Of a stretch of 30,630 bases of DNA, positions 3 to 30,630 are shown piece by piece. Position 1 is the first letter of the stretch. Each line of letters opens with the position of its first letter. Below the pieces are notes generated by a model, which saw only the letters and a program-made list of their open reading frames with translations, did no database searches and was not told where the DNA came from. Origin of the DNA: a virus; the IMG/VR virus record IMGVR_UViG_3300025308_000017, positions 1 to 30,630 of that record; one strand, written 5' to 3'. A program made the position numbers and the translations under genes.

Positions 3-380
3 CTAGTATGAAAAAGGTGTAGACTTTTCCACCCCCCTACCCCATCCACCATCATCGGTTGCTGTTTTTTTCGAGTGGTGGGCATGGCAGCGAGAGTGAA
101 GGTATTCGTCTGCGTCGGGATCGGGGACGCCACGAGCGACCAGGATACGGCGGGATGGGACGTGGTCCACGTCGGTGGCGGGGGCACCGCAATCCTCGCA
201 GTAGGGGTGGGCGGCCAGGAACGCTGCACGGATGCGCTGCCAGCGCGCCCCGTAGCCGCGGCTGGCCGCGGTGGGACGGGTATCCCGCGGGCGTACAGAG
301 ACAGGGCGCGGGCCGTGAATGGTGCAGTTGATGCGGCCACACAGCGGGACCCAGCAGACGCGGGCAATCTTGTTAGCCAT
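3..380 (-). CDS. HNH endonuclease, phage packaging-associated type
   Basis: This encodes a 125-residue HNH nuclease. A Cys pair at residues 61 and 64 (CEDCG) is followed by D72-H73 in the VDHV motif and a closing CH..HH cluster near 98-102, which is the zinc and metal-binding core of small phage HNH proteins. Family members usually lie beside small terminase and help cleave DNA during packaging. An extra Cys-rich stretch (residues 9-19) precedes the nuclease domain. I chose the ATG at 380 because an AAGGA sits just upstream; in-frame ATGs at 386 and 407 are alternatives. It overlaps the end of the upstream zinc-ribbon gene by 8 bases, so it is the last visible gene of the early operon. Terminase genes would be expected next, off the left edge. 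Confidence 0.85.
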   Translation of the reverse strand: MANKIARVCWVPLCGRINCTIHGPRPVSVRPRDTRPTAASRGYGARWQRIRAAFLAAHPYCEDCGAPATDVDHVPSRRILVARGVPDPDADEYLHSRCHAHHSKKTATDDGGWGRGVEKSTPFSY

Positions 381-597
381 GATCATCCTTCGAGAATTGA
401 ATGACATCTCTCAATTGGTTATCGCTGGTTTCCCAATAAAACGGTTTGCCGCATTGTGCGCAGCAGCCGCGCAATAAGCGCCAGATACCTCCACTGGCAT
501 GGAATAGTGGCATTCCTTTGATTGTCACCAGTTCGCCAAGGACGTTCCCGCAGGCGGGACAGGTGACAGGTTCGGGTGCGGTAATGGGTGCAGTCAT
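373..597 (-). CDS. Small two-CxxC zinc-ribbon protein
   Basis: This 74-residue protein has CPACG near residue 13 and CAQCG near residue 47. The spacing fits one zinc ribbon with roughly 30 residues between knuckles. It starts inside the stop of the upstream gene (ATGA overlap at 594-597) and runs 8 bases into the HNH gene, so all three are probably translationally coupled. A nucleic-acid-binding or accessory role is likely, but I recognise no named family. Confidence 0.7.
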   Translation of the reverse strand: MTAPITAPEPVTCPACGNVLGELVTIKGMPLFHASGGIWRLLRGCCAQCGKPFYWETSDNQLRDVIQFSKDDHG

Positions 598-1939: not shown

Positions 1940-2226
1940 TCGGTTTCCCTTTTTAGCGGCAGATTTTCTTTCCAGACCAGTTGAGCGTGACCGCTACCGT
2001 ATTCATCCATCCAGGCGTAGGAGATCAGGTCGGGCAGATTGGTTAGGAAATGTTTCTCTTTGATGGCTTCCAGATCGGGGATGCGCCCGAATTGGGTGAA
2101 TTTCAGCCGGTGCAATCCATTGGGCAGGATGCGGCTCTCGGTCATGTGCAGCGGCCCAACCAATGGATCAAAGTCTTTCAGGGTGGAGGGGATGGGCACG
2201 GCTTTGATGGGGAGTAAATTATTCAT
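1936..2226 (-). CDS. Hypothetical early protein
   Basis: This is a 96-residue protein starting MNNLLPIK. The chosen ATG overlaps the stop of the upstream gene (2219-2226) and follows a purine-rich stretch; an in-frame ATG at 2244 would add six basic residues. There are no Cys clusters or membrane segments. The hydrophobic pattern suggests a small alpha/beta fold with an aromatic C-terminal half. No family is recognised. Confidence 0.6.
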   Translation of the reverse strand: MNNLLPIKAVPIPSTLKDFDPLVGPLHMTESRILPNGLHRLKFTQFGRIPDLEAIKEKHFLTNLPDLISYAWMDEYGSGHAQLVWKENLPLKRETE

Positions 2227-2458
2227 CGTCTTTTTCTTCGGCATCCAATCCTGCCGATGTGGGTATCAGCCCTTTGAGCGGAGGCTGCTGCGGAATGATG
2301 CGCAGTTCCACTTTGCCGTCGTCTTTATCCACATACAGCGCCAGGGCTTCGGCGGCTTCCATGTTTTCATCGTTGATCGCCAGACTGAAAGCAATCTTCA
2401 ACTCACCGGCGGCAATATCCGCCTTGACTGATTTCACTTTGCATTGTGGGAATTCCAT
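2219..2458 (-). CDS. Hypothetical acidic early protein
   Basis: This encodes a 79-residue acidic protein starting MEFPQCKVK. An AGGAG 6 bases upstream of the ATG at 2458 supports this start over the longer frame to 2488. Alternating hydrophobic and charged residues (KSVKADIAAGELKIAFSL, then KVELRIIPQQ) suggest beta strands around an NDENMEAAEAL helix, a fold often seen in small phage proteins of unknown function. It overlaps the next gene by 8 bases. Confidence 0.65.
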   Translation of the reverse strand: MEFPQCKVKSVKADIAAGELKIAFSLAINDENMEAAEALALYVDKDDGKVELRIIPQQPPLKGLIPTSAGLDAEEKDDE

Positions 2459-2491
2459 TCGTCTCTCCTGTTTTCTCTTTCGGGACAATCG

Positions 2492-2740
2492 TCAATTTAC
2501 AAAAACTACGTGAGGACTTGATAGATCGAGCGCACCCCCCAAGTAACGAGCAGCAAGGCGGGAAACTCTTTGATTGAACCATTCTGGATCGTCTATCTTG
2601 ACAGTTAGCGTAGCTGTATCTGAATGCCAGTTTTTGATTGCACTCTCGCTCAACCGCTGGGCATGTGGATTGCTCGGAACATACCTGGCGCATACGATTA
2701 TTTCTTCCACAACCATTTTCCAGGCTTCTTCTATTCCCAT
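2492..2740 (-). CDS. Hypothetical protein, 82 aa
   Basis: This encodes an 82-residue protein with a helical N-terminus (IEEAWKMVVEEIIV) and a C-terminal segment mentioning EWFNQRVSRLAARYLG. A weak purine-rich TAGGG precedes the ATG. It sits in the same strand and spacing as its operon neighbours (33 bases to the next gene after start-site refinement). No family is recognised. Confidence 0.55.
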   Translation of the reverse strand: MGIEEAWKMVVEEIIVCARYVPSNPHAQRLSESAIKNWHSDTATLTVKIDDPEWFNQRVSRLAARYLGGALDLSSPHVVFVN

Positions 2741-2751
2741 GTTTTTAGTCC

Positions 2752-3114
2752 CTACAGTATTCCAGGCTGGGCGGCTTCGCCGAACTGCGACCGGGCGGCG
2801 TTGCGCATGGCCTTTTCGGTTTTCAGCAGATCCATCGCCTTGGGGTGCAGTTCCCGCTGGATGAACTCGTCGAACTCGTCTTTCGTGCCGGCCATGAAGT
2901 AGCCGCCCTGCCTTCCGGGGGCGGAGCAGATGAGCCAGCCTTTTTGCCGCAGGTTGTGAACAGCCTGCCGGACGATGCGCTCGTGGACGCCGGGGAAAGC
3001 GCCCCGCACCCGGCTTACCAGCCGTTGGCGGCCCAGGGATAATTCCCGGCCCTTGACATCTCGCAGCGCCAGGATGACTGTCTTTTCAAGTCCTTCGGGA
3101 ACGGATAGTTTCAT
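2752..3114 (-). CDS. Winged-helix DNA-binding protein
   Basis: The 120-residue product looks like a winged helix. A helical N-terminus (EGLEKTVILALRDVKG) leads to a probable recognition region, and a wing with GWLICSAPGRQGGYF (about 58-72) follows the ERIVRQAVHNLRQK helix. A charged tail with repeated helices follows. A strong AAAGGAG lies 5 bases before the ATG. It is probably an early regulator or an accessory factor for replication. It lies directly downstream of an unusual intergenic segment (3115-3407). Confidence 0.7.
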   Translation of the reverse strand: MKLSVPEGLEKTVILALRDVKGRELSLGRQRLVSRVRGAFPGVHERIVRQAVHNLRQKGWLICSAPGRQGGYFMAGTKDEFDEFIQRELHPKAMDLLKTEKAMRNAARSQFGEAAQPGIL

Positions 3115-3130
3115 GGTTCTCCTTTGGGCG

Positions 3131-3166
3131 GGTCTCGATACGCTGCTTCGCAGCTACTCGACCACC
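3131..3166. repeat. REP-like imperfect palindrome, copy 1
   Basis: GGTCTCGATACGCTGC and GCAGCTACTCGACCACC face each other around a short TTC loop. A diverged second copy with the same ends lies at 25897-25939 between the capsid and protease genes. Both copies read GGTYTCGATACGC...GCTACTCRACCACC on the plus strand. This is an intergenic repetitive extragenic palindrome. Confidence 0.6.
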
Positions 3167-3189
3167 AGCGCCCCTGCGGGCTTCTCCCA

Positions 3190-3218
3190 GGTTGCGCCGG
3201 CGCTTACCCGGCGCAACC
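3190..3218. repeat. Perfect 11-bp hairpin in intergenic region
   Basis: GGTTGCGCCGG and CCGGCGCAACC form an 11-bp perfect stem around a 7-base loop, and flanking CTCCC/GGGAG could extend it. There is no T-tract on either side, so it is not a clear rho-independent terminator. Confidence 0.6.
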
Positions 3219-3290: not shown

Positions 3291-3400
3291 CAGGGCTGCC
3301 GGGATTTGAACCCGGGGCAGGCCCGGCCCTTCGACAAGCTCAGGACAAGTACCCGCCGCCAGTTGCCCCGCCTGGTTTACCTCCAGGAAGGGCCAGCCCT
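3291..3400 (-). tRNA. tRNA-like remnant (T-arm and acceptor stem recognisable)
   Basis: On the minus strand a 7-base arm AGGGCTG (from 3400) pairs with CAGCCCT near 3292-3298. A canonical T-arm, CCGGG-TTCAAAT-CCCGG, sits directly before the 3' acceptor arm. The rest does not fold as a normal tRNA: the span is about 110 bases, no clear D-arm or anticodon arm can be assigned, and a 26-base interspersed repeat (3327-3352) lies where the anticodon or variable region should be. It is most likely a tRNA pseudogene or a tRNA-like fragment disrupted by repeat insertion. No amino-acid identity can be given. Confidence 0.3.
3327..3352. repeat. Interspersed repeat CCCTTCGACAAGCTCAGGAC
   Basis: This 26-base segment is closely related to the insert at 18971-18996 (CCTTCGACTTCGCTCAGGAC...). 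The core is itself roughly palindromic. Here it sits inside the tRNA-like element; at the other site it splits a separate palindrome. That pattern suggests a small mobile or repeat-seeded unit. Confidence 0.5.
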
Positions 3401-3407
3401 CGTTTCT

Positions 3408-3791
3408 TTATGGAAGATAGCCTCGGTTGGTTAGATACCGAATGGCGTCTTCGAAGGTTTTGGCTTTGTTTTTGAACATCGTCACCGTGTTGCCGGTTTC
3501 GTCCAGGATCCAGATAAACATCCCCTGGTCGAGTTGGCACATCCAGGCCGAGCGTTGGGTATCGGGGTTGTACATCATCTTGGGACTGATGGTGCCATAA
3601 CCGCTGAAACAGGTTACCGCGGCGGAGATAACATCAGCATGGCGGTCTACTTCATGGGCGTCATTGGCAGGCACGGTTACGGGCGGGAATGTCGTCACGG
3701 TTGACAAGAACATGAAGAGCAATGCGCCGATGGCCAGGAATAACAACAAAATGGGCGCTGGACTGGTTTTGGGGTTGGCTATTGCGTTCAT
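3408..3791 (-). CDS. Membrane-anchored hypothetical protein
   Basis: This 127-residue protein has one N-terminal transmembrane segment (residues about 12-33, ILLLFLAIGALLFMFL). A likely extracytoplasmic domain of about 90 residues follows, with two cysteines that could pair. The ATG at 3791 has a strong AAGGAG upstream. A small membrane protein in a phage early operon may act in host takeover or exclusion, but nothing specific is visible. Confidence 0.7.
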   Translation of the reverse strand: MNAIANPKTSPAPILLLFLAIGALLFMFLSTVTTFPPVTVPANDAHEVDRHADVISAAVTCFSGYGTISPKMMYNPDTQRSAWMCQLDQGMFIWILDETGNTVTMFKNKAKTFEDAIRYLTNRGYLP

Positions 3792-4507: not shown

Positions 4508-4924
4508 TCAAGAAAACTTGCCCGGCTTATGCAAACCTAATATCACCGTGAACAGGCCGCGCTCGCCTTCGAGCAGCAGGGCATCGGCCAGGGCTTTGCC
4601 GGAGACCGGGCGCTGGGTGAAGTGGCGTTTCGGGAAGAGTTCCTCTTCGATGGGGTTCCAGTGCCAGTCACAGAGACGCAGTATCTTCGCCAGGCAGGAG
4701 ACGCAGTAGTAGCCGTTGCCGCCGGCCTGACCGCAGCCGCGCAGGAAGCGCATGGCCCGCCCGGCCGCCTGGTTCTCCCGGCAGACCTGGCACAGGCAGA
4801 CCTTGCGGTTCATCTGCCACGGGTAGACCTTGCCGGCGTTCACGATGATGCGGTCCACGCGCTCGGGGTCGAAGATCGCAGGATGGGATACGTCTTTGAT
4901 GGTCAGGTCAGGATGGTCGGGCAT
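4508..4924 (-). CDS. Cys-rich hypothetical protein
   Basis: This is a 138-residue protein. Its centre carries CLCQVC (about 43-48), then GCGQ, CVSC and LCDWHW, which suggests at least one zinc site, possibly a treble-clef or ribbon. The N-terminus (ESP-like PDHPDLTIKDV) and the C-terminal half are not recognised. It overlaps the upstream gene by 17 bases. It could be a nucleic-acid-binding accessory protein. Confidence 0.6.
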   Translation of the reverse strand: MPDHPDLTIKDVSHPAIFDPERVDRIIVNAGKVYPWQMNRKVCLCQVCRENQAAGRAMRFLRGCGQAGGNGYYCVSCLAKILRLCDWHWNPIEEELFPKRHFTQRPVSGKALADALLLEGERGLFTVILGLHKPGKFS

Positions 4925-5333
4925 GGCTCACAACTCCTGTTTTATGCACCGGGCAGTCCGGGTTGTCGCCGGGGCGCTCGAAGCAGGAGCATAGGATGCC
5001 GGCGAATAAGAGCTTGGCGCTCTCGACGATATGGTCGGCGCTCAGTGCGTATGCTTGTGCTCCAACCATTTCCAAGGCCGCTGCCATTCTCCTGGACTGA
5101 GACGGTTCCGCCAGTTCGTCCTTTTCTTCGCGGATGGGGGGTACCGATTGCCCATAGCGCCATACCGCCTGGCAGAAAACGGTTTCCGGTACAATCCCAT
5201 AACTACCTTTCATGCTGGATGCAAATGGATTGCCGCACAATTCCCATCCATCTTCCAGGTGCGCCGTTACTTCGGCGCTGAGTTCTTCAGGAATATTGCC
5301 ATGCAAAAGTTTGTATTTAAGCGGTAATGTCAT
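4908..5333 (-). CDS. DUF1737-like protein with Cys-rich C-terminus
   Basis: The N-terminal 45 residues (KYKLLHG, then ELSAEVTAHLEDGWELCGNPF) match the pattern of the small DUF1737 domain: a strand, a long helix and a GW.L.G turn. About 95 more residues follow, ending in CSCFERPGDNPDCPVH, a probable metal site. Members of DUF1737 are widespread in phages and bacteria without a known biochemical role. The whole protein is 141 residues. Confidence 0.6.
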   Translation of the reverse strand: MTLPLKYKLLHGNIPEELSAEVTAHLEDGWELCGNPFASSMKGSYGIVPETVFCQAVWRYGQSVPPIREEKDELAEPSQSRRMAAALEMVGAQAYALSADHIVESAKLLFAGILCSCFERPGDNPDCPVHKTGVVSHARPS

Positions 5334-7262: not shown

Positions 7263-7655
7263 ATGCAATTAGCCCCGCTCAAATTTACCGAATGGTTCAA
7301 CAAACTTTTGAAAGACTATAATCTGGGCGTTCGAGAAGCCGCCCGGAAGATAAAAATATCCCACCCTATGGTTTCTGATCTACAGAATGCAGCAAAACCA
7401 ACAGAAGGCACCTGCGTAAAAATAGCAATCGCATTTGATTACCCTACAGACTTTGTTTTATCTTTGGCTGGCTATCGCCAGCAGGCTAAAGACCCCAATG
7501 TCGAACTCATCACTTATCTCGCCGAACAACTCCCAACCACCGAAGACAAAGAAGACGCCGCTGAATATATTCGCCTGCGCCTGCGCATCGCTGAAGAACG
7601 GGGAAAGTATGGAACCACTGACAAAAAGAGAGATTCAAGAACTAAACCAGGTTGA
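7263..7655 (+). CDS. CI-like HTH_3 (XRE-family) repressor
   Basis: This 130-residue protein has an N-terminal helix-turn-helix at about residues 20-55 (LGVREAARKIKISHPMVSDL, then AAKPTEGTCVKIAIAFDYP), typical of Cro/CI-type XRE regulators. The C-terminal half is charged and helical, with no S24 peptidase. It is divergent from the early operon and next to its operators, so it is the best candidate for the lysogeny repressor. An AAAAGG precedes the ATG. Base composition is AT-richer than the late genes. Confidence 0.8.
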   Translation: MQLAPLKFTEWFNKLLKDYNLGVREAARKIKISHPMVSDLQNAAKPTEGTCVKIAIAFDYPTDFVLSLAGYRQQAKDPNVELITYLAEQLPTTEDKEDAAEYIRLRLRIAEERGKYGTTDKKRDSRTKPG

Positions 7656-9570: not shown

Positions 9571-9588
9571 TTAGCACAAACTTTCTAA
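9571..9588 (+). repeat. TTAGCACAAACTTTCTAA motif, copy 2 (identical to copy 3)
   Basis: This 18-base sequence ends at the first base of the integrase start codon and is identical to 28546-28563. It could be an operator controlling the integrase or part of an attachment site. No ribosome-binding site separates it from the ATG. Confidence 0.55.
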
Positions 9589-11105
9589 TGCGCTACGCCA
9601 TCCTCACCGCCGTCTCCTCCAAATCCCAGGCCGCCGAAGGCAAAGACAGCCTGCCGGTCCAGGAAGAAAACTGCCGCCGGGCGGCGCTCGGCAAGGGCTG
9701 GGTCGAGAGCGCCGGGCCGTTCGTCATCCCCGGCCAGCCGCGCACCGGCTACGTCAACCTTTCGGACGCCGAGCGCGAGATCCCGCCCCTGCACGCCATG
9801 CTCGAAGCCGCCAGCGCCGGGGGCTTCGACGTGCTCGTCATCTACGACTACTCCCGCCTGCGCGACCTGATCGCCCTGGTGGCCACCTCCCTGGCCGATT
9901 ACAACGTCCAGATATACTCCCTGTCCCAGGCCGTCGAACCCGTCCCGCCCAGCGAGTTCGACCCCGCCCTGGCCGACGCCGCCTGGTTCAACCAGACCGC
10001 CGCCGGCATGACCAGCCGCGCCGAGATCAACGCCCTGCGCCGGCGCTTCAAGATCGGGATGCCGGGGCGTGTGACCAATAAGGGACTCCATCCGCTCGGG
10101 CGACTGCCTTATGGCTACCGCAAACCGCCCGGCCAGGAACACGACCGCCAGGCCGTCCCCGAACCGGACCCGGTCACTGCTCCCGCCGTGTTGACCATGC
10201 GCGACCTGCTGTTTACCGGGCGCTCCCTGCCCCAGATCGCCAAGGCCCTCGACGCCGCCGGGTATTCCACCCGCTCCGGCCATCCCTGGCACCCTGATAG
10301 CGTCCGGCGCATCCTGCGCAATCCCTACTACTCTGGCATTGTCACCTTTGGCGTGCTGCGCCGCCAGCGGGATGCCCGCCAGGGCCGCCAGACGCGCGTG
10401 GTGCGCTCCTCCGCGCCGGTCCACACCGCCGCCGGAAAACATGCCCCGCTCTGGGATGATCTCACCCACCGCACCATTCTCGACGAACTCGCCCGGCGCG
10501 GCAAAGCCTACCCCGGCCAGCGCCTCTCGCGCTTCTCGTGCCTGCTGTTCTGCTCCGTTTGCAAACGGATGCTGTGGGTGGGATACCGCACCTGGAAAAA
10601 CCATCCCGCCTCCGACGCCACCCGCGTCTACCTGTGCTCCGGCCACGATCTCAGCCACACCCGCCTGAAAGAGTCGGACCTGCTACCGGAGATCGCATCC
10701 CGCCTGCAAGCAGCCCTGCGCCACATGGAAAGCATCCCCATCCCGTCCGCCGCTCCCGATCCGCTGCCCCTGCTGCGCAAACAGATCGCCGAACTGGAGA
10801 CACGCCGCACCCGGCTCACGGAGGCCTACCTCGGCGGAGCCATAGACCTGGCCGAATATAGCAAATTGAAATCAGACATCGCCAGCCAGCAGACCAGCGC
10901 CGCCGAATCCCTCCGCCGCGCCGAGGATACCGCCGCGCGCCAATCCGAACGCACCGGCCAACTGCGCGCCCTGGCTGGTCAGCTCGACGCCATCCCTGAA
11001 TTCATCGCCCATGCTGACCCGCAAACCGTCAACGCCAGCCTGCACCACGTGCTGGAGAAGATCATTGTCACGCCAGAGGGAGAGATCGAGTTTCGGTGGC
11101 TGTAG
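9588..11105 (+). CDS. Large serine recombinase (phage integrase)
   Basis: This 505-residue protein has the large serine integrase layout: a resolvase-like catalytic domain (about 1-150), a recombinase domain (about 165-270, with LGRLPYGYRKPP and HPDSVRRILRNPYYSG), a zinc ribbon (CSVC near 322 and CSGH near 351) and a C-terminal coiled coil. It would cut and join attP with attB. The active-site segment reads AVSSKSQ where most relatives have RVS, so the conserved Arg two residues before the nucleophile is Ala; the DRLSR motif is replaced by SRLRD. Coding sequence is clearly GC-richer than flanking small genes, suggesting separate acquisition. The start codon has no ribosome site, so a leaderless message is likely. 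Confidence 0.85.
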   Translation: MRYAILTAVSSKSQAAEGKDSLPVQEENCRRAALGKGWVESAGPFVIPGQPRTGYVNLSDAEREIPPLHAMLEAASAGGFDVLVIYDYSRLRDLIALVATSLADYNVQIYSLSQAVEPVPPSEFDPALADAAWFNQTAAGMTSRAEINALRRRFKIGMPGRVTNKGLHPLGRLPYGYRKPPGQEHDRQAVPEPDPVTAPAVLTMRDLLFTGRSLPQIAKALDAAGYSTRSGHPWHPDSVRRILRNPYYSGIVTFGVLRRQRDARQGRQTRVVRSSAPVHTAAGKHAPLWDDLTHRTILDELARRGKAYPGQRLSRFSCLLFCSVCKRMLWVGYRTWKNHPASDATRVYLCSGHDLSHTRLKESDLLPEIASRLQAALRHMESIPIPSAAPDPLPLLRKQIAELETRRTRLTEAYLGGAIDLAEYSKLKSDIASQQTSAAESLRRAEDTAARQSERTGQLRALAGQLDAIPEFIAHADPQTVNASLHHVLEKIIVTPEGEIEFRWL

Positions 11106-12126: not shown

Positions 12127-12999
12127 CTACGGCCAGATCTGCCCACAGGCGGGACAGCGGCGCGGCTCGAGGTCCGGCGGCGGCGTTGTACCTGCATCAG
12201 TCCACCAAGGTTTATAGATGACGTTCAGGTCAACGACCTTTTTGATGGCCGGATGGCCGGGAATGTCTTTGGCGCAGACGCGGGAAGTAAACTGCCAGAT
12301 GGCAATGTCGCTGCCCCAGGGGGAGAGCATCCGGTTGTAAGGTTTGCCGTCCATCGGGACCAGACGACCATCCTGGATTTTTGCGAGTATTTCAGTCAGT
12401 TTCTCGCCGGTGAATAAATAGGGCGGCAATTGGATACGGGTATTGGCAATCCAATTATCCAGCGGCCACTGCGCCAGGCACAGCGGATATTTCTTCGCCC
12501 AGATTGCGGCTGCCCCGCCGATCTCCAGCCAGAAGGATGGATAGGTATACAGGAATGGGACCTGCCCGGTGGCTTTTTGGATCTCGTACATCCACGATCC
12601 CATGGCCTGCAAACAGGACTGTCCGCTCATGCCATCCCAGGTTTCGAAGTCCAGGATTAGGCGGTCGTCCGGGGTGCGCTCCACCGCATTCCAGATTTCC
12701 AGCACATCCTGCGCCTGGGCGATGGCATTGCGGTTCGAACGGAAGAAATGATAGGCCAGGCGCGGCCGGCCGGCAGCCGCCTGCCACTGGACGCGAAAGG
12801 CGGGATCTTCGAAAACGCCATCCACCCAGCGGCCATTGCGGTAAACCAGCCCGCCTTCGGATATTTTGACTGCCGCCACTTGGATGCCAATGTTTTTGGC
12901 TTTCTCCCAGTCGGTCGGTTGGTCGTAGATCCATTTCCCGGCCACATATCGGCGGGCATCGTACAGCGAAACATCCATCATCAAAGGGTTATTGGGCAT
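12127..12999 (-). CDS. GH25-like endolysin (lysozyme)
   Basis: This 290-residue protein resembles glycoside hydrolase family 25. LMMDVSLYD near the N-terminus matches the DvS strand, AAVKISEGG the vKasEG strand, and LAYHFFRS the AYHF strand. LILDFETWDG carries the acidic D-x-E catalytic pair, and a late DIAIWQFTS matches the WQyt strand. It would cut the peptidoglycan glycan backbone at lysis. The C-terminus ends in RRCPACGQIW, a half zinc knuckle instead of a typical wall-binding domain. The ATG at 12999 has AGGA 9 bases upstream; the longer frame to 13047 overlaps the previous gene. Confidence 0.8.
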   Translation of the reverse strand: MPNNPLMMDVSLYDARRYVAGKWIYDQPTDWEKAKNIGIQVAAVKISEGGLVYRNGRWVDGVFEDPAFRVQWQAAAGRPRLAYHFFRSNRNAIAQAQDVLEIWNAVERTPDDRLILDFETWDGMSGQSCLQAMGSWMYEIQKATGQVPFLYTYPSFWLEIGGAAAIWAKKYPLCLAQWPLDNWIANTRIQLPPYLFTGEKLTEILAKIQDGRLVPMDGKPYNRMLSPWGSDIAIWQFTSRVCAKDIPGHPAIKKVVDLNVIYKPWWTDAGTTPPPDLEPRRCPACGQIWP

Positions 13000-13661: not shown

Positions 13662-14138
13662 TTATGCAGGCTGGAATTTGAGATGCGTTTCCAGACCCAA
13701 CGTTCCGGTCCCGGCAATGTCACAGTCAACAGAAAGCCGGTCACCGGTGGCTACATCGTCTTTGCTGGTATCGATCACCGCCGGGGTGGCGGCGGAGTAA
13801 CTGCTGAATTCGCTGGCGTCAATAGAGCAACTGGTACTGAGCATATCCACGCTGTCAGTGACGTTGCGTAGTTGGATGGTGGGCAGTCCGCTGGAAGAAA
13901 CGGTATAAACGCAGGCGGCTATGGCTACCAGGTTCCAGCCGGTGACCCAGGCTGGAATGGTGATGTGAATTTGGTCATCGCCCACGGTCAGGGCTTGGGC
14001 ATCTCCGATTACCTTCACTAACAACTGGGCGGTGTCGGATTGGGTCTTCAAGTAGTTGTCGTTGGCGATCAGTTGGTTCCATTCGCTGGCGGGAACCACG
14101 TAACCGGCAGAGCGGGTTGTCATTGCTACAAATGCCAT
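13662..14138 (-). CDS. Putative tail fibre or minor structural protein
   Basis: This 158-residue protein begins with WNQLIANDNYLKTQ, an N-terminal helix common in phage fibre proteins. A beta-rich region follows, with many Thr/Ser/Val residues and a terminal LETHLKF strand. Its place between tail genes and the DNRLRE protein supports a structural role. No enzymatic motif is visible. Confidence 0.55.
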   Translation of the reverse strand: MAFVAMTTRSAGYVVPASEWNQLIANDNYLKTQSDTAQLLVKVIGDAQALTVGDDQIHITIPAWVTGWNLVAIAACVYTVSSSGLPTIQLRNVTDSVDMLSTSCSIDASEFSSYSAATPAVIDTSKDDVATGDRLSVDCDIAGTGTLGLETHLKFQPA

Positions 14139-26658: not shown

Positions 26659-28191
26659 TTATTCGGCGGGCGGTGCGAGAAGGCGGCAGATAAAGGCTTC
26701 GGGGTCGAGTGCCGGGATCACGGTCCGGTTGGCGCGGCGGTCGGCGGCGGTGCGGGCAGCGACCGTTGTCAGAATGTCCAGGTCGAGCATCCCGGCTTCG
26801 ACGCAGGGGCGGAATGAGCGGCGGATGAAGGATGGCAGTTCGGCGGTGTAAAACTCTTCTTCCCAGGCGGTGAATTTATCGGCCTTGCCTTTTTCCTGCC
26901 AGCGGGCAATGGCGTCACGCTGTTCGTTGGTCTCGTAGCGGGCAACCCGTTCAGCAATGTCGAGCAGGATGGGCGTGGCAGAGCGGGGCTGAACCTTCCC
27001 AGGCTGGCCCTGCCCGGCTTCGCCCATGTTGAGCGGGAAGCGGTAGGTGTCGCCGCCTTTGTACGGATTGCGGTTTTCGGCTTCGCGGGCTTCGTTGGGG
27101 GAGAGAATGCCGTTGCCGATGGCAGTGGCATAGGCGGTCATACGGGACTGGATGTCGGTGCGCAGGAGCGCATCCACCAGGTGTTCGAAGTAATATTTCA
27201 AGCGTTCAGCGGGCAGGAGCAGGTCTTTGTTGAGCTGCTGCTCAATGCGCACCAGCCAAGGGCGCAGGGTATGCGCCAGGTAGCCGAGTTCCTGCTGCTC
27301 GATGCCGGTGCCCCAGGAGGTGGAGTTGGTCACGTCGCCAAGCATGTGGGGCGGGATGCGGAACATGCGGGCGATCTCGGAGACTTGAAATTGGCGGGTT
27401 TCGAGAAATTGGGCTGCATCGGGTTCGATGCCGATGGTTTTGATGTCGAGGCCTTCTTCCAGCACGGCCACTTTGCCCGTGTTCTCCGCGCCGCGATAGG
27501 TGTCGTTCCAACTCTCGCGCAAGTTCTTTCGCGCTTCGGGTTTCATTGGTTTTGGGGAGGTAAGTACCACAGTGGGGCGGGCATCATTGGCGAAGAAGCG
27601 CGAGCCATACTTTTCGGCGGCAATGGCCAGCCCGACGGCGTTCTTCGCCAGGGAGATACGGGAGTAGCCGCGGATACCGTCGAAGCCGAAAGCGGGGATG
27701 TGCAGGAGGTCCTGCTGGCGGAAGGCGATGCGCTTCCCGGCGTCATTCTGATACAGGTAGCGGCGTTCGCCGTCGGCCCGGAAGATTTCCATGCGGGAGG
27801 GATTGAGCGGCCAGAGTTCGGTGACCACGCCGCGCTCGTCCCACAGCATCTGGGCGAAGAAGTTGCCCCAGCCGAGCATGTGCCCCACCTGAAGTTCACG
27901 GTAGACCATGCTGGTCATTTCAGGGTTGGGAGCGTTGTGCATCAGGGTGTAGCAGGGATGATCGGTGGCGCGCTCTTTGCCGCGCTCCAGGCGACGATAC
28001 AGGATCATGGGCAGGCTGGAGGTGTCTTCGGTGAGAATGGTGAAGCCAGCCAGCACCGCTGTGACCTTGAGCGAGCCTTCCACGCTGACATTGATCCCCG
28101 AGGCCGATTCGCCGATGCCCAGGCTTTCAAGCAGCCACTGGGGAGGGGATGTAATAGATACGTCGCGCTGATGGATGATCTGGCGCAGCAT
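26659..28191 (-). CDS. HK97-type portal protein
   Basis: This 510-residue protein has portal signatures. An N-terminal region (SSLPMILYRRLERGKERATD, HPCYTLMHNAPNPEMTSM) precedes VGHMLGWGNFFAQMLWD and VTELWPLNPSRMEIF, the portal clip/stem strands. QDLLHIPAFGFDGIRGYSRI and the ending VSEIARMFRIPPHMLGDVTN with GTGIEQQELGYLAHT match HK97 gp3-type portals. Twelve copies form the DNA channel at the capsid vertex. The ATG directly follows the stop of the small membrane gene. Large terminase would usually lie just upstream, but here DUF115-like and cassette genes do. Confidence 0.9.
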   Translation of the reverse strand: MLRQIIHQRDVSITSPPQWLLESLGIGESASGINVSVEGSLKVTAVLAGFTILTEDTSSLPMILYRRLERGKERATDHPCYTLMHNAPNPEMTSMVYRELQVGHMLGWGNFFAQMLWDERGVVTELWPLNPSRMEIFRADGERRYLYQNDAGKRIAFRQQDLLHIPAFGFDGIRGYSRISLAKNAVGLAIAAEKYGSRFFANDARPTVVLTSPKPMKPEARKNLRESWNDTYRGAENTGKVAVLEEGLDIKTIGIEPDAAQFLETRQFQVSEIARMFRIPPHMLGDVTNSTSWGTGIEQQELGYLAHTLRPWLVRIEQQLNKDLLLPAERLKYYFEHLVDALLRTDIQSRMTAYATAIGNGILSPNEAREAENRNPYKGGDTYRFPLNMGEAGQGQPGKVQPRSATPILLDIAERVARYETNEQRDAIARWQEKGKADKFTAWEEEFYTAELPSFIRRSFRPCVEAGMLDLDILTTVAARTAADRRANRTVIPALDPEAFICRLLAPPAE

Positions 28192-28545: not shown

Positions 28546-28563
28546 TTAGCACAAACTTTCTAA
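28546..28563 (+). repeat. TTAGCACAAACTTTCTAA motif, copy 3
   Basis: This sequence is identical to 9571-9588. It overlaps the stop of the DUF115-like gene. Two identical 18-base motifs flanking the integrase-to-portal segment is the notable point. Confidence 0.55.
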
Positions 28564-29114
28564 GATTGCAAGAGTGGGGAGGCCTGCCATTTTCCAAATA
28601 TTGCAACCAGCGGGCCACTCATCGCTCGAATGCGCTCGGGGTGCGGGCATCGCTGGAAGGCTTCCCGCCAGCCGGCCAGGTGCTCTGCGAGCGGGGTCTG
28701 GTAGGCCTGGTTGCGGGGGTCGTCGCCGGGCGGGATGGGGTTGCGGTACAGGTCCATGCCACAAAGCAGCACCGGGCTGCAGCCCAGCCAGCAAGCAAAC
28801 CAGCAGGCGAGGTGACTGGAGAAACGCCCCTGCCACCAGGTCGAGCCGCCCAAATCTATATCCATTTCGGGCTGGCGGGTGACGAACAGTCCGCCTTTGC
28901 TGCGGATCTCGTCTCCGGGCATGGGCATCCGGGCCAGGTCATCCAGAAAAACGGTGTAGTCGGCATGGATATAGCGCAGGGCGTGGTGGTTGACGCTGAT
29001 CAGCACCGCGCCGGGCGGGACCCGGGGCAGGTCCGCGGGCAGGCTGGGTCCGCCGCCCAGGACGGCGGCGGGGCGGCCAGCGTGGATGTTCTGTAAGGAT
29101 GCGATGGGGATCAT
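28560..29114 (-). CDS. DUF115/MptE-like protein
   Basis: The 184-residue protein has AAVLGGGPSLPADLPRVPPG, a Gly-rich nucleotide-type loop, then NHHALRYIHADYTVFLDDLA and a later CWFACWLGCSPVLLCGMDLY. These match the MptE-like (6-hydroxymethylpterin pyrophosphokinase-like) DUF115 fold, a short version of a family also used as phage or flagellar glycosyl-modification proteins. The start lies 10 bases from the last attC-like R' box (29124-29130), so it is the first gene past the cassette array. Substrate is unknown. Confidence 0.65.
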   Translation of the reverse strand: MIPIASLQNIHAGRPAAVLGGGPSLPADLPRVPPGAVLISVNHHALRYIHADYTVFLDDLARMPMPGDEIRSKGGLFVTRQPEMDIDLGGSTWWQGRFSSHLACWFACWLGCSPVLLCGMDLYRNPIPPGDDPRNQAYQTPLAEHLAGWREAFQRCPHPERIRAMSGPLVAIFGKWQASPLLQS

Positions 29115-29123
29115 GGGGAGTCC

Positions 29124-29260
29124 GCCGAACGGTTCGGCTCAGCGGCGGGGCGGGAGGCCGGGGGATGCCAACGGTTATGAACGGGACAAAGTTTCTCAGT
29201 AGTGCATTTAGCAAGACTAGATTCCCCGCCCGCTTCGGACGGCTGGACGTTGTGTTCGGC
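29124..29260 (-). repeat. attC-like site f, degenerate, of a gene-less cassette
   Basis: The 5' box GCCGAAC (minus strand, 29260-29254) and the 3' box GTTCGGC (29130-29124) are perfectly complementary. Inner arms share GCGGGG/CCCCGC, but L''/L' pairing (ACGTCCAGCCG against CCGCTGAGCC) is poor. The cassette body between the previous R' and this R'' is only about 43 bases and holds a CCACCCC/GGGGTGG hairpin but no ORF. Confidence 0.5.
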
Positions 29261-29303
29261 GGCGGCCAACGAGCCCACCCCGTTCTGTGGGGTGGCGAGC
29301 GAC

Positions 29304-29427
29304 GCCGAACGGTTGGTTTTACCGGCGGCGCTAGGAAACATCTGGATCGGTACCAACCGGATTGATATTGCCAAGATACCCAGGTCGGGGCGCATTAGCG
29401 CCGTCCGTGTGCGAACCTTTGTTAGGT
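29304..29427 (-). repeat. attC-like site e
   Basis: R'' is ACCTAAC (29427-29421, fits RYYYAAC) and R' is GTTCGGC (29310-29304). L arms pair AACC/GGTT, then CCG/CGG and GCGCCG/CGGCGC around one unpaired base (29404). The loop contains a GGCGC/GCGCC mini-hairpin. About 124 bases long, it follows cassette ORF 29331-29564. Confidence 0.65.
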
Positions 29428-29564
29428 GCGTGGTAGAGACGGAGGCGAGATGATCTACAACCACCACACCACGCAAAGCGCAGCGGGATATGCTTGGCAA
29501 CTTTACCGATCCAACCACATTTCAAGCACTCGACTTCTTTAGTTTCGTAATTCTCAATATTCAT
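29331..29564 (-). CDS. Cassette ORF: zinc-ribbon protein
   Basis: The 77-residue protein starts NIENYETKEVECLKCGWIGK; CLKCG (about 12-16) and CGGC (about 33-36) form one zinc ribbon. Its ATG at 29564 is only 6 bases from the R' box of attC site d, typical of integron cassette genes. The C-terminal 30 residues (YHAPNKGSHTDGANAPRPG and beyond) are encoded inside attC site e. Function is unknown. Confidence 0.6.
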   Translation of the reverse strand: MNIENYETKEVECLKCGWIGKVAKHIPLRFAWCGGCRSSRLRLYHAPNKGSHTDGANAPRPGYLGNINPVGTDPDVS

Positions 29565-29569
29565 GTAGC

Positions 29570-29694
29570 ACCTAACGGTTCGGCTCAGCGGCGGGGCTAT
29601 TGATGCGGAAACCCACAATGTTCACAAACCACTGTATCAAATTCCGGTGAGTTACATTCGGGGCAAGCCCCGTCCGCTGGAGCCGGTGTTCGGC
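29570..29694 (-). repeat. attC-like site d, best-formed
   Basis: R'' is GCCGAAC (29694-29688) and R' is GTTAGGT (29576-29570, fits GTTRRRY). The arms GGCTC/GAGCC, AGCGG/CCGCT and CGGGG/CCCCG pair perfectly for 15 bp, with one unpaired base at 29679 and another at 29673, all on the same side. An inner CGGGGC-TT-GCCCCG hairpin lies in the loop. This is the integron attC signature, about 125 bases. Confidence 0.8.
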
Positions 29695-29821
29695 GGCGCG
29701 CCAATTCTCCGAGACACGCCCTAACGAAATCGCCATCACCAACATTTTTTGAATCAATCATCATTCTAGCAATTTCTTCTTTCGTCCACAAATTCCAGGG
29801 AAATGAACTGTAATCTGCCAT
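29597..29821 (-). CDS. Cassette ORF: zinc-finger protein
   Basis: The 74-residue protein starts ADYSSFPWNLWTKEEIARMM. GAGAAAGG lies 7 bases before the ATG at 29821. The C-terminus CPECNSPEFDTVVCEHCGFPH is a zinc ribbon encoded inside attC site d, preceded by RRTPAPADGA, whose codons overlap the R''/L'' boxes. The cassette origin has therefore supplied part of a folded domain. Function is unknown. Confidence 0.65.
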   Translation of the reverse strand: MADYSSFPWNLWTKEEIARMMIDSKNVGDGDFVRACLGELARRRTPAPADGACPECNSPEFDTVVCEHCGFPHQ

Positions 29822-29844
29822 GAATAAACCTTTCTCGATGTGCC

Positions 29845-29942
29845 GCCGAACGGATAAGATCAAGCGCCTGGGCGCTCGTTTTTAGAATTGGCCTGGGATT
29901 TTTTGGACTGCGCGCCCAGGTCGCTTGGAGCGGGTGTTATGC
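29845..29942 (-). repeat. attC-like site c
   Basis: R'' is GCATAAC (29942-29936) and R' is GTTCGGC (29851-29845). CAAGCG pairs with CGCTTG and CCTGGGCGC with GCGCCCAGG, giving 15 bp with one unpaired base at 29921. The loop of about 36 bases is A-rich. About 98 bases long. Confidence 0.75.
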
Positions 29943-30081
29943 CCCGTAATGGTAGGCTGAATAAGCCATTGATAACAGCCGTTTCGAGCGCCGACCAAGA
30001 AGCAAAGCCAACCGCCTGCGCCGCCTGATTGAGAAATTGGCGGCGCTTCTGCTGGCGGGTGCGTTGGGTTTTATCAATCAT
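29860..30081 (-). CDS. Cassette ORF: hypothetical helical protein
   Basis: The 73-residue protein starts IDKTQRTRQQKRRQFLNQAA and continues with QAVGFASWSALETAV, basic then amphipathic helix. It overlaps the previous gene by 4 bases (ATGA), so two genes share one cassette, like many toxin-antitoxin pairs. The last residues (ITPAPSDLGA onward) are encoded in attC site c. No toxin or antitoxin family is recognised. Confidence 0.6.
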   Translation of the reverse strand: MIDKTQRTRQQKRRQFLNQAAQAVGFASWSALETAVINGLFSLPLRGITPAPSDLGAQSKKSQANSKNERPGA

Positions 30082-30281
30082 AAATTTGCCTTGAAATATG
30101 CGTAGGGCGTAAACACTTGTTCACCTTCGGCCAGCATGGGAAGGACGCTGCCTTTTTTCCAAAAACCGCTTCCTTCGGTATGTTCTACACATTCCTGTTC
30201 GGTGGTTTCAAACCAATCCAACGGTTCGCCCTCCGCTGCTAATTCTTTGGCTCCATTTCTCCACTTTTTTAGAATTTTCAT
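30078..30281 (-). CDS. Cassette ORF with own promoter: hypothetical protein
   Basis: The 67-residue protein starts KILKKWRNGAKELAAEGEPL and is rich in aromatic residues near the end (QVFTPYAYFKANL). An AAGGAGAGC lies just before the ATG, and the promoter at 30300-30328 reads toward it. Most cassette genes depend on a distant promoter, so a private promoter hints at a need for steady expression. Function is unknown. Confidence 0.6.
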   Translation of the reverse strand: MKILKKWRNGAKELAAEGEPLDWFETTEQECVEHTEGSGFWKKGSVLPMLAEGEQVFTPYAYFKANL

Positions 30282-30299
30282 GTTTGCTCTCCTTATTGT

Positions 30300-30328
30300 A
30301 TTATACTACCGTTATATAACACCGTCAA
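30300..30328 (-). promoter_or_regulatory. Strong sigma70-type promoter inside cassette
   Basis: On the minus strand TTGACG (30328-30323), a 17-base spacer and TATAAT (30305-30300) form a near-consensus promoter. It lies between attC site b and the two-gene cassette ORFs and should drive both. Confidence 0.75.
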
Positions 30329-30343
30329 GAGGGAAAGGGAGGG

Positions 30344-30458
30344 GCATAACGGTTTGTATGAGCGGCTATTCGCCATGCTCAGGACAAAATGGGTCAGTGT
30401 CCCAACCAAAGCAGGAACACATGGATTTGGAAACAGTCCGCTCCATACTTTGTTCGGC
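30344..30458 (-). repeat. attC-like site b
   Basis: R'' is GCCGAAC (30458-30452) and R' is GTTATGC (30350-30344). GTATG/CATAC and AGCGG/CCGCT pair perfectly over 10 bp, with one unpaired base at 30443. About 115 bases long, in the same orientation as the other sites. Confidence 0.75.
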
Positions 30459-30575
30459 GGCTTCTAACTCATCACGCACAACCGCACACATTTCAAGAAA
30501 CTCAACAGGGTTATAGGTTGGCTGATTGCCAAGACGATCACGGGCAATTTTCAAAATTTGCTGAGACTTATCCAT
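30366..30575 (-). CDS. Cassette ORF: hypothetical protein with Cys pair
   Basis: The 69-residue protein starts DKSQQILKIARDRLGNQPTY. A helical middle (FLEMCAVVRDELEAAEQSME) precedes a C-terminal CSCFGWDTDPFCPEHG metal-like motif. The last third is encoded within attC site b. GAAGG lies before the ATG. Its cassette starts at the R' box near 30599. Function is unknown. Confidence 0.55.
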   Translation of the reverse strand: MDKSQQILKIARDRLGNQPTYNPVEFLEMCAVVRDELEAAEQSMERTVSKSMCSCFGWDTDPFCPEHGE

Positions 30576-30598
30576 TTTGATTTCCTTCTCGGCGTGCC

Positions 30599-30630
30599 GC
30601 CGAACGGGGCGCGGCGTCAGGCGCTGGGAC
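30599..30630 (-). repeat. attC-like site a, truncated by window end
   Basis: Only the 3' half is visible: R' GTTCGGC (30605-30599) preceded on the minus strand by AGCGCCTGACGCCGCGCC. The start after it, GGCACGCCGAGAAGG, is nearly the same as GGCACATCGAGAAAGG after site c. The 5' half lies outside. Confidence 0.5.

Follow-up and report, generated by a model that had tools for sequence, protein, structure and literature searches.

Organisation of the locus

The stretch of DNA analysed in this work (the window) is an IMG/VR viral contig of 30,630 bases, whose right end, from position 29124 to 30630, was read on both strands. It is composed of a series of attC sites and short cassette ORFs followed by an MptE-like gene and a portal gene. 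The features are listed below, with scores of the attC covariance model R1 described in the next section.

3..407, minus strand: HNH endonuclease at the opposite end of the contig (PHROG 144, E 8e-17)
26659..28191, minus strand: HK97-type portal (PF04860, E 5e-109; TIGR01537)
28560..29114, minus strand: MptE-like gene, 184 aa, first phage gene past the array (PF01973, E 1e-6, below the Pfam cut-off)
29124..29260, minus strand: attC site, last of the array (R1 15.4 bits, E 0.11)
29304..29427, minus strand: attC site (R1 28.7 bits)
29331..29564, minus strand: cassette ORF, 77 aa, reading across attC into its L' arm
29570..29694, minus strand: attC site (R1 46.0 bits, E 3e-9), hairpin with two extrahelical bases
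29597..29821, minus strand: cassette ORF, 74 aa, tail CPEC...CEHC from the attC loop, stop at the L' arm, weak Zn_ribbon_3 match
29845..29942, minus strand: attC site (R1 30.6 bits)
29860..30081, minus strand: cassette ORF, 73 aa, ending within attC; SWSA.ETAVING common to cassette ORFs of L052 and L063 (by eye)
30078..30281, minus strand: cassette ORF, 67 aa, no convincing family match
30300..30328, minus strand: promoter-like TTGACG-17-TATAAT around the palindrome GTTATATAAC, within a cassette (by eye)
30344..30458, minus strand: attC site (R1 32.1 bits)
30366..30575, minus strand: cassette ORF, 69 aa, CSCF..CPEH tail, stop codon inside the next attC
30606..30630, minus strand: L' half of a sixth attC site, truncated by the contig end (R' box GTTCGGC at 30599-30605)

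The attC sites

Strict-arm-rule attC finders overlooked sites, and for this reason a covariance model (R1) was built from 32 aligned attC sites of bacterial chromosomal integrons. The training loci were IntI-bearing and from named bacterial genomes, no phage sequence was used, and the structure encodes R, L and the extrahelical bases. Run across the entire window on both strands with filters off, R1 placed all of its top five matches on the minus strand of the array; elsewhere in the window the best score was 9.5 bits, and the site at 29570-29694, read on its other strand, gave 10.5 bits. The sixth site is visible as a whole in the overlapping contig L002 (at approximately 3373-3650), where its loop is too long for R1; by eye it pairs as GGCGTC.C.AGGCG.A.CTG / CAG.CGCCT.GACGCC.

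On the minus strand each unit opens with GTT and closes with the reverse complement of its start, after which come the hairpin and the next GTT. The start box of a cassette is the reverse complement of its own R'' (GTTATGCCCC/GGGGCATAAC, GTTAGGTGC/GCACCTAAC, GTTCGGCGGC/GCCGCCGAAC), as required of an integrated circular cassette. Circular cassettes integrating at G|TT yield GTT-bounded units of this kind. The same crossover point is given in PMC8876359, and in the last attC (29124-29260) it lies between 29130 and 29129, precisely the point at which the contig L003, described below, diverges. The extrahelical bases are on the minus-strand L'' arm, a single base followed some six bases on by an A, which is also the pattern of bacterial attC sites (for example CGGCT.C.CAGCGG.A.CGGGG against CCCCG.CCGCTG.AGCCG). 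Folding of the bottom strand as single-stranded DNA was strong for 29570-29694 only (z -4.0, 0/200 shuffles) and weak for the remaining four (z -1.0 to -1.8); with one site out of five much better than its shuffles, folding energy alone is insufficient to settle attC identity.

The criterion for tandem attC sites, i.e. one orientation, the order R''-L''-L'-R' and extrahelical bases on one arm, is met. The sites at 29124-30630 are thus genuine attC sites, and the cassettes of this array are on the minus strand and directed toward the portal. The original prediction, made from sequence alone, had described AAC ... GTT repeats at this position, six attC sites on one strand, unpaired bases on one arm, and an integron cassette array within a phage beside its portal gene. 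All of these held, with five sites recovered by R1 in one orientation, the sixth cut by the contig edge, and the arm identified as the minus-strand L''; the reading on the plus strand failed, as both sites and ORFs are on the minus strand.

Integrase, attI and overlapping contigs

A PF00589 search of the window gave no match, because intI sits off the contig. Overlapping contigs of the same phage were obtained by an IMG/VR portal search. Where they overlap the window, L002 (7.9 kb) is 99.93% identical to it over 4.3 kb and L004 (6.7 kb) 99.96% over 4.6 kb; both contigs extend beyond its right edge and carry TerL, intI, the array and the portal. The full gene order, in one direction, is TerS, TerL, intI, attI, about seven cassettes, the MptE-like gene and the portal. 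TerL is assigned by PF03354/PF20441, and TerS lies ahead of it in L002. Because an HNH gene precedes TerS-TerL in relatives, the two ends of the window, one of which carries the HNH endonuclease, probably flank the missing TerS-TerL-intI segment.

In L002 the ATG of intI lies within the TerL stop codon (ATGA overlap). Its 328 aa product (2218-3201) matches TIGR02249 with 398 bits (cut-off 265) over positions 1-315 of 315, aligns end to end with the solved structure of a Vibrio IntI (PDB 2a3v, E 2e-81), and has the catalytic residues R135, K160, H266, R269, H292 and Y301 invariant. The protein after TerL is an integron integrase, located on L002 and L004 and not on the window record; that it is active in recombination is inferred. 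Just after the intI stop codon is the attI sequence GATAAGGATAG|T, conserved in L002, L003, L052 and L062 and with one change in L063, and the first cassette starts about fifteen bases past the stop. L002 has further cassettes upstream of those in the window; the attC of one of them, judged by eye, is very long. The overlap of intI with TerL leads us to infer that the cassettes are transcribed from a shared late promoter.

The earlier statement that no integron integrase is in view holds therefore for the window only: both intI and attI, sought beyond the right edge, were found just past it, between TerL and the first cassette. The array had also been thought to occupy the place of the terminase genes, and this failed, as it comes after TerL and intI. 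The linkage to intI depends on other IMG entries whose assemblies overlap the window and are possibly not independent samples.

Array exchange between near-identical phages

A further contig from another assembly, L003, matches the window phage from the last attC on with 99% identity, rising to 99.93% in the first 2.8 kb; across the end of intI and attI its identity is 97%. Between these conserved flanks it carries four different cassettes with different attC sites. The arrays of L002 (1901 bp) and L003 (1278 bp) have no cassette in common. At attI identity reaches into the R box by two bases and breaks at ATAG|TT; at the last attC it breaks two bases ahead of the R box, at CC|GTT. As both edges of the array are at integrase crossover points, the exchange is hard to explain without site-specific recombination. 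It leaves the remaining phage genome collinear.

The criterion of cassette mobility is met from one variant pair only, and the left end of L003 is odd: only the last 52 or so residues of IntI are present, and the first 435 bases or so look foreign and may represent an assembly chimera. Both array edges fall on crossover points despite this foreign-looking start. Patterns anchored on the array edges revealed no variants past L001-L004. In L006 (portal 78%) TerL, a small ORF and the MptE-like gene follow each other without an integron, which by comparison we infer to be the ancestral or empty state. The phage probably reshuffles genes through the integron system, although activity is inferred and no recombination was measured.

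Related phages and phylogeny of IntI

R1 also matches the arrays of related phages. L052 (IntI 71%, TerL 24% identical) has the order TerL, intI, cassettes, MptE-like gene and portal, and L139, 3.6 kb long and assigned by binning to an Anaerolineales genome, has TerL, intI (68%) and four attC sites. The TerL-intI-array order is present in three different phages (L002, L052, L139), with the portal after the array in two of them. An intI-cassette module upstream of the terminase genes is found in L062 and L063 (both with an IntI 72-73% identical to that of the window phage), and also in L085, L089 and the phage Rctr41k (KX853513). In the latter (L061, KX853513.1 4680-10101) the IntI relative is annotated as xerD, and after it come six attC sites and a cassette for a C5 DNA methylase; Rctr41k carries a complete integron which seems to have gone unrecognised. 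G003, the record containing L062, is 67.7 kb long with two terminase/portal sets, and only the part around intI was used. These sets (L219-L222) are about 36-40 kb apart and may reflect tandem related phages or a chimera.

In a maximum-likelihood tree the IntIs of the window phage, L052, L062, L063, L139 and Rctr41k form clade A (99/94), and ten other viral contigs, nine with a terminase match, form clade B (100/99). All 44 bacterial IntIs fall outside both clades, in a bacterial sample which is limited. The IntIs of P1 and of Vibrio phages are beside bacterial ones, and Shewanella phage IntI is also outside clades A and B. The nearest bacterial IntI is about 53-55% identical to that of the window phage. 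Clade A phages have IntIs 68-80% identical and TerLs only 24-60% identical, and from this far higher conservation of IntI we infer that the module travels between phages. L063 and L085 are related phages, with 82% DNA identity in TerL, and both have intI at one and the same place ahead of HNH-TerS-TerL; their IntIs belong to different phage clades, which could reflect a swap of the whole integron.

Cassettes of clades A and B are co-directional with intI, whereas the layout is divergent in bacteria, to which Treponema is a known exception (PMC3607928), and in most other viral contigs. In the clade B contigs L106, L115 and L130 a conserved attI-like sequence, GTAGTTGTAGAATCATGAGTT, follows the end of intI, and L089 has only ATCATGAGTT. 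Most other IMG/VR contigs with an IntI (40-52%) were not counted as phage integrons; they mostly have the classical divergent layout, many group with bacterial IntIs, and no terminase or portal family matched them among the families tried. One 45.6 kb viral contig, L137, has a terminase match and a very divergent IntI; its attC sites number at least twelve, and its layout is the classical divergent one.

Coding attC sites

The stop codon of the cassette ORF lies more than 20 nt inside the attC site in 39 of 49 phage sites (clades A and B) versus 10 of 109 bacterial ones, and exactly 9 nt ahead of R' in 16 of the 49 and none of the 109. Considering only sites of at least 85 nt, the stop is in the last 30 nt in 34/47 phage and 1/43 bacterial sites (p 7e-13). 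In phage attC sites the frame ending at the cassette-ORF stop near R' is depleted of stops (16 in 1283 codons, versus 105 in 2558 for the other two frames, p 4e-7); bacterial attC sites have no such frame bias in stops. The p-values are optimistic, since attC sites in related arrays are not independent. In several cassette ORFs the attC loop encodes a zinc-ribbon tail, as for CPEC...CEHC in the window. Hairpins of attC are known to hinder the translation of cassettes further along, an effect which a short ORF within the site is believed to counteract (PMC8876359). By inference, reading through attC would keep the downstream portal and capsid genes expressed.

Cassette cargo

Family searches gave no convincing match for the window's own cassettes. 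In related phages, cassette products include DNA methyltransferases, a PAPS-reductase/ParB pair and proteins with zinc ribbons or an HTH, and most are of unknown function. L052 and L063 have in common a 1.9-kb block with PAPS-reductase and ParB-like genes at 90% DNA identity, from which movement of cassettes between phages is inferred.

The promoter-like element around GTTATATAAC is near-identical between L052 (about 13690-13740) and L063 (about 12300-12350) and similar in the window; judged by eye, it resembles an autoregulated operator, a reading we offer as no more than a possibility. A similar Cys/His tail is present in an early-region protein (4908-5333, CSCFERPGDNPDCPVH) and in the cassette protein 30366-30575 (CSCFGWDTDPFCPEH), and may at some time have passed between the early region and the array.

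Probable lysogeny genes and plausible host

A large serine integrase (9588-11105; PF07508, PHROG 95 E 2e-53) and, near it, a repressor-like gene (7263-7655) probably constitute a lysogeny module, as inferred from family matches. The phage is therefore likely to be temperate and IntI unlikely to be its lysogeny integrase; as the phage has a large serine integrase of its own, IntI need not be essential.

Portal relatives of 35-44% were found in Chloroflexota (three genomes, then 396 of the class), and a related IntI is present in 22 of the 396 Anaerolineae genomes at E <= 1e-100, a count which includes the phage contig. As portal relatives and chromosomal integrons both occur there, Anaerolineae are a plausible host class, and we regard this assignment as possible. 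It remains a guess, since the best portal relatives reach just 35-44%.

Proposed mechanism and alternative explanations

In our interpretation the region holds the cassettes of an integron that is complete and encoded by the phage (probability approximately 0.88), recombination activity being inferred. Four components of a complete integron are found: an IntI with its specific insert and catalytic residues, attI beside intI, tandem attC sites and mobile cassettes. A phage-specific integron of the late region is likewise supported by a phage-only IntI clade, co-directional cassettes and linkage to terminase and portal. In the proposed mechanism, IntI would be made together with the late genes and would act on the bottom strand of attC in its folded form; recombination would release cassettes and let new ones enter at attI, which lies at the 3' end of intI. 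Incoming cassettes may derive from co-infecting phages or from host chromosomal integrons, and once inserted would be read within the packaging/head operon. Because cassette ORFs cross attC and stop in the L' arm, we propose that ribosomes melt the hairpin, by which the downstream capsid genes would stay expressed. The cargo may be a swappable kit against host defences, as suggested by the methyltransferases, the PAPS-reductase/ParB pairs and small unknown proteins, whose functions are not established. A bolder reading, which we favour, is that tailed phages own integrons: two or more lineages of IntI would reside in phage genomes and travel with them, close to the packaging genes, each clade with its own attI, the cassettes being late-transcribed and the attC sites coding in a fixed frame that spares virion gene expression.

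The most serious alternative is a captured host integron, recently picked up from a bacterial chromosome and without lasting role. Anaerolineae, the plausible hosts, often hold chromosomal integrons with a related IntI, and phage IntIs of such origin are known, including a reported Vibrio phage case. However, the IntI of the window phage groups only with phage IntIs (clade A, 99/94), the nearest bacterial one is at about 53-55%, and the 68% match, L139, is itself a TerL-intI contig; the P1, Vibrio and Shewanella phage IntIs are placed elsewhere in the tree, and the same module recurs across phages whose TerLs are only 24-60% identical. This explanation is unlikely and, within the limited bacterial sample, largely refuted by the tree. 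IntI could also be mainly a lysogeny integrase, integrating the phage genome into host attC or attI with cassettes as by-products, and a Vibrio prophage excising at attC sites has been described (PMC9892861). The separate serine integrase and repressor-like gene, and the collinearity of the rest of the phage upon array exchange, make this very improbable.

Two further explanations concern the status of the locus itself. It could be a CALIN, an integrase-less attC cluster and passive remnant, as intI is absent inside the window and 17 phage CALINs have been published (PMC9892861); however, L002 and L004 have intI and a conserved attI directly ahead of their first cassette, and L003 has a different array, so that a CALIN is as good as ruled out unless L002 and L004 are chimeric at the same place. 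Or the array could belong to a bacterial chromosome, by a host integron beside a prophage or by a chimeric contig. In favour are a metagenomic contig which stops inside the array and the foreign-looking start of L003; against are the TerL/intI ATGA overlap in L002 and the TerL-intI-array order in L002, L052 and L139, with the portal following in two of these, and hardly any room is left for this view.

If phages maintain dedicated integrons, they own a site-specific, homology-independent means of swapping accessory genes, plausibly for counter-defence, both between phages and with host integrons, and this would be a route for cassettes among bacteria and make phage integrons a source for the unknown cassette pool. 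The coding attC would be a new answer to the hampering of downstream translation by attC hairpins (PMC8876359).

Comparison with known systems

Integrons count as platforms of bacteria and, since recently, of archaea, with phages seen as occasional carriers. The claim in the original prediction that such a cluster at the place of the terminase genes looked undescribed held in part only, as attC clusters in phages were already published: Qi et al. 2023 (PMC9892861) reported phages with three complete integrons, one cassette-less intI and 17 CALINs, and phage attC sites recombined by IntI1. In the open-licence literature searched (supplements excluded) there was no description of a phage-specific intI lineage or of a terminase-linked integron; an earlier mention is possible. 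A complete, phage-lineage-specific integron in the packaging/head region with coding attC sites appears to be undescribed.

Among bacterial systems, a chromosomal integron with intI read toward attI and the cassettes has the same direction as the phage module but no terminase linkage, whereas the phage module aligns intI, cassettes and virion genes. Chromosomal integrons of Anaerolineae/Chloroflexota have a similar attC core (GCGT.G.CACCTG.A.CG in L148, GCGT.G.TACCTG.A.CG in L003), but their IntIs are only about 50-55% identical, form a separate clade and are mostly in divergent orientation. ORFs in the bacterial set seldom cross attC, unlike in phage arrays. In Rctr41k (KX853513), too, intI and the six attC sites after it lie upstream of the terminase; its IntI is 54% identical. 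The integrons and CALINs of Qi et al. are likewise attC arrays, sometimes with intI, in phage genomes; their clusters in virulent phages are without intI, and the IntIs tested (P1, Vibrio, Shewanella) are outside the phage clades. In distinction to these, the window phage has an intI of a phage clade, a site in the packaging region, its own attI and an array which varies between near-identical phages.
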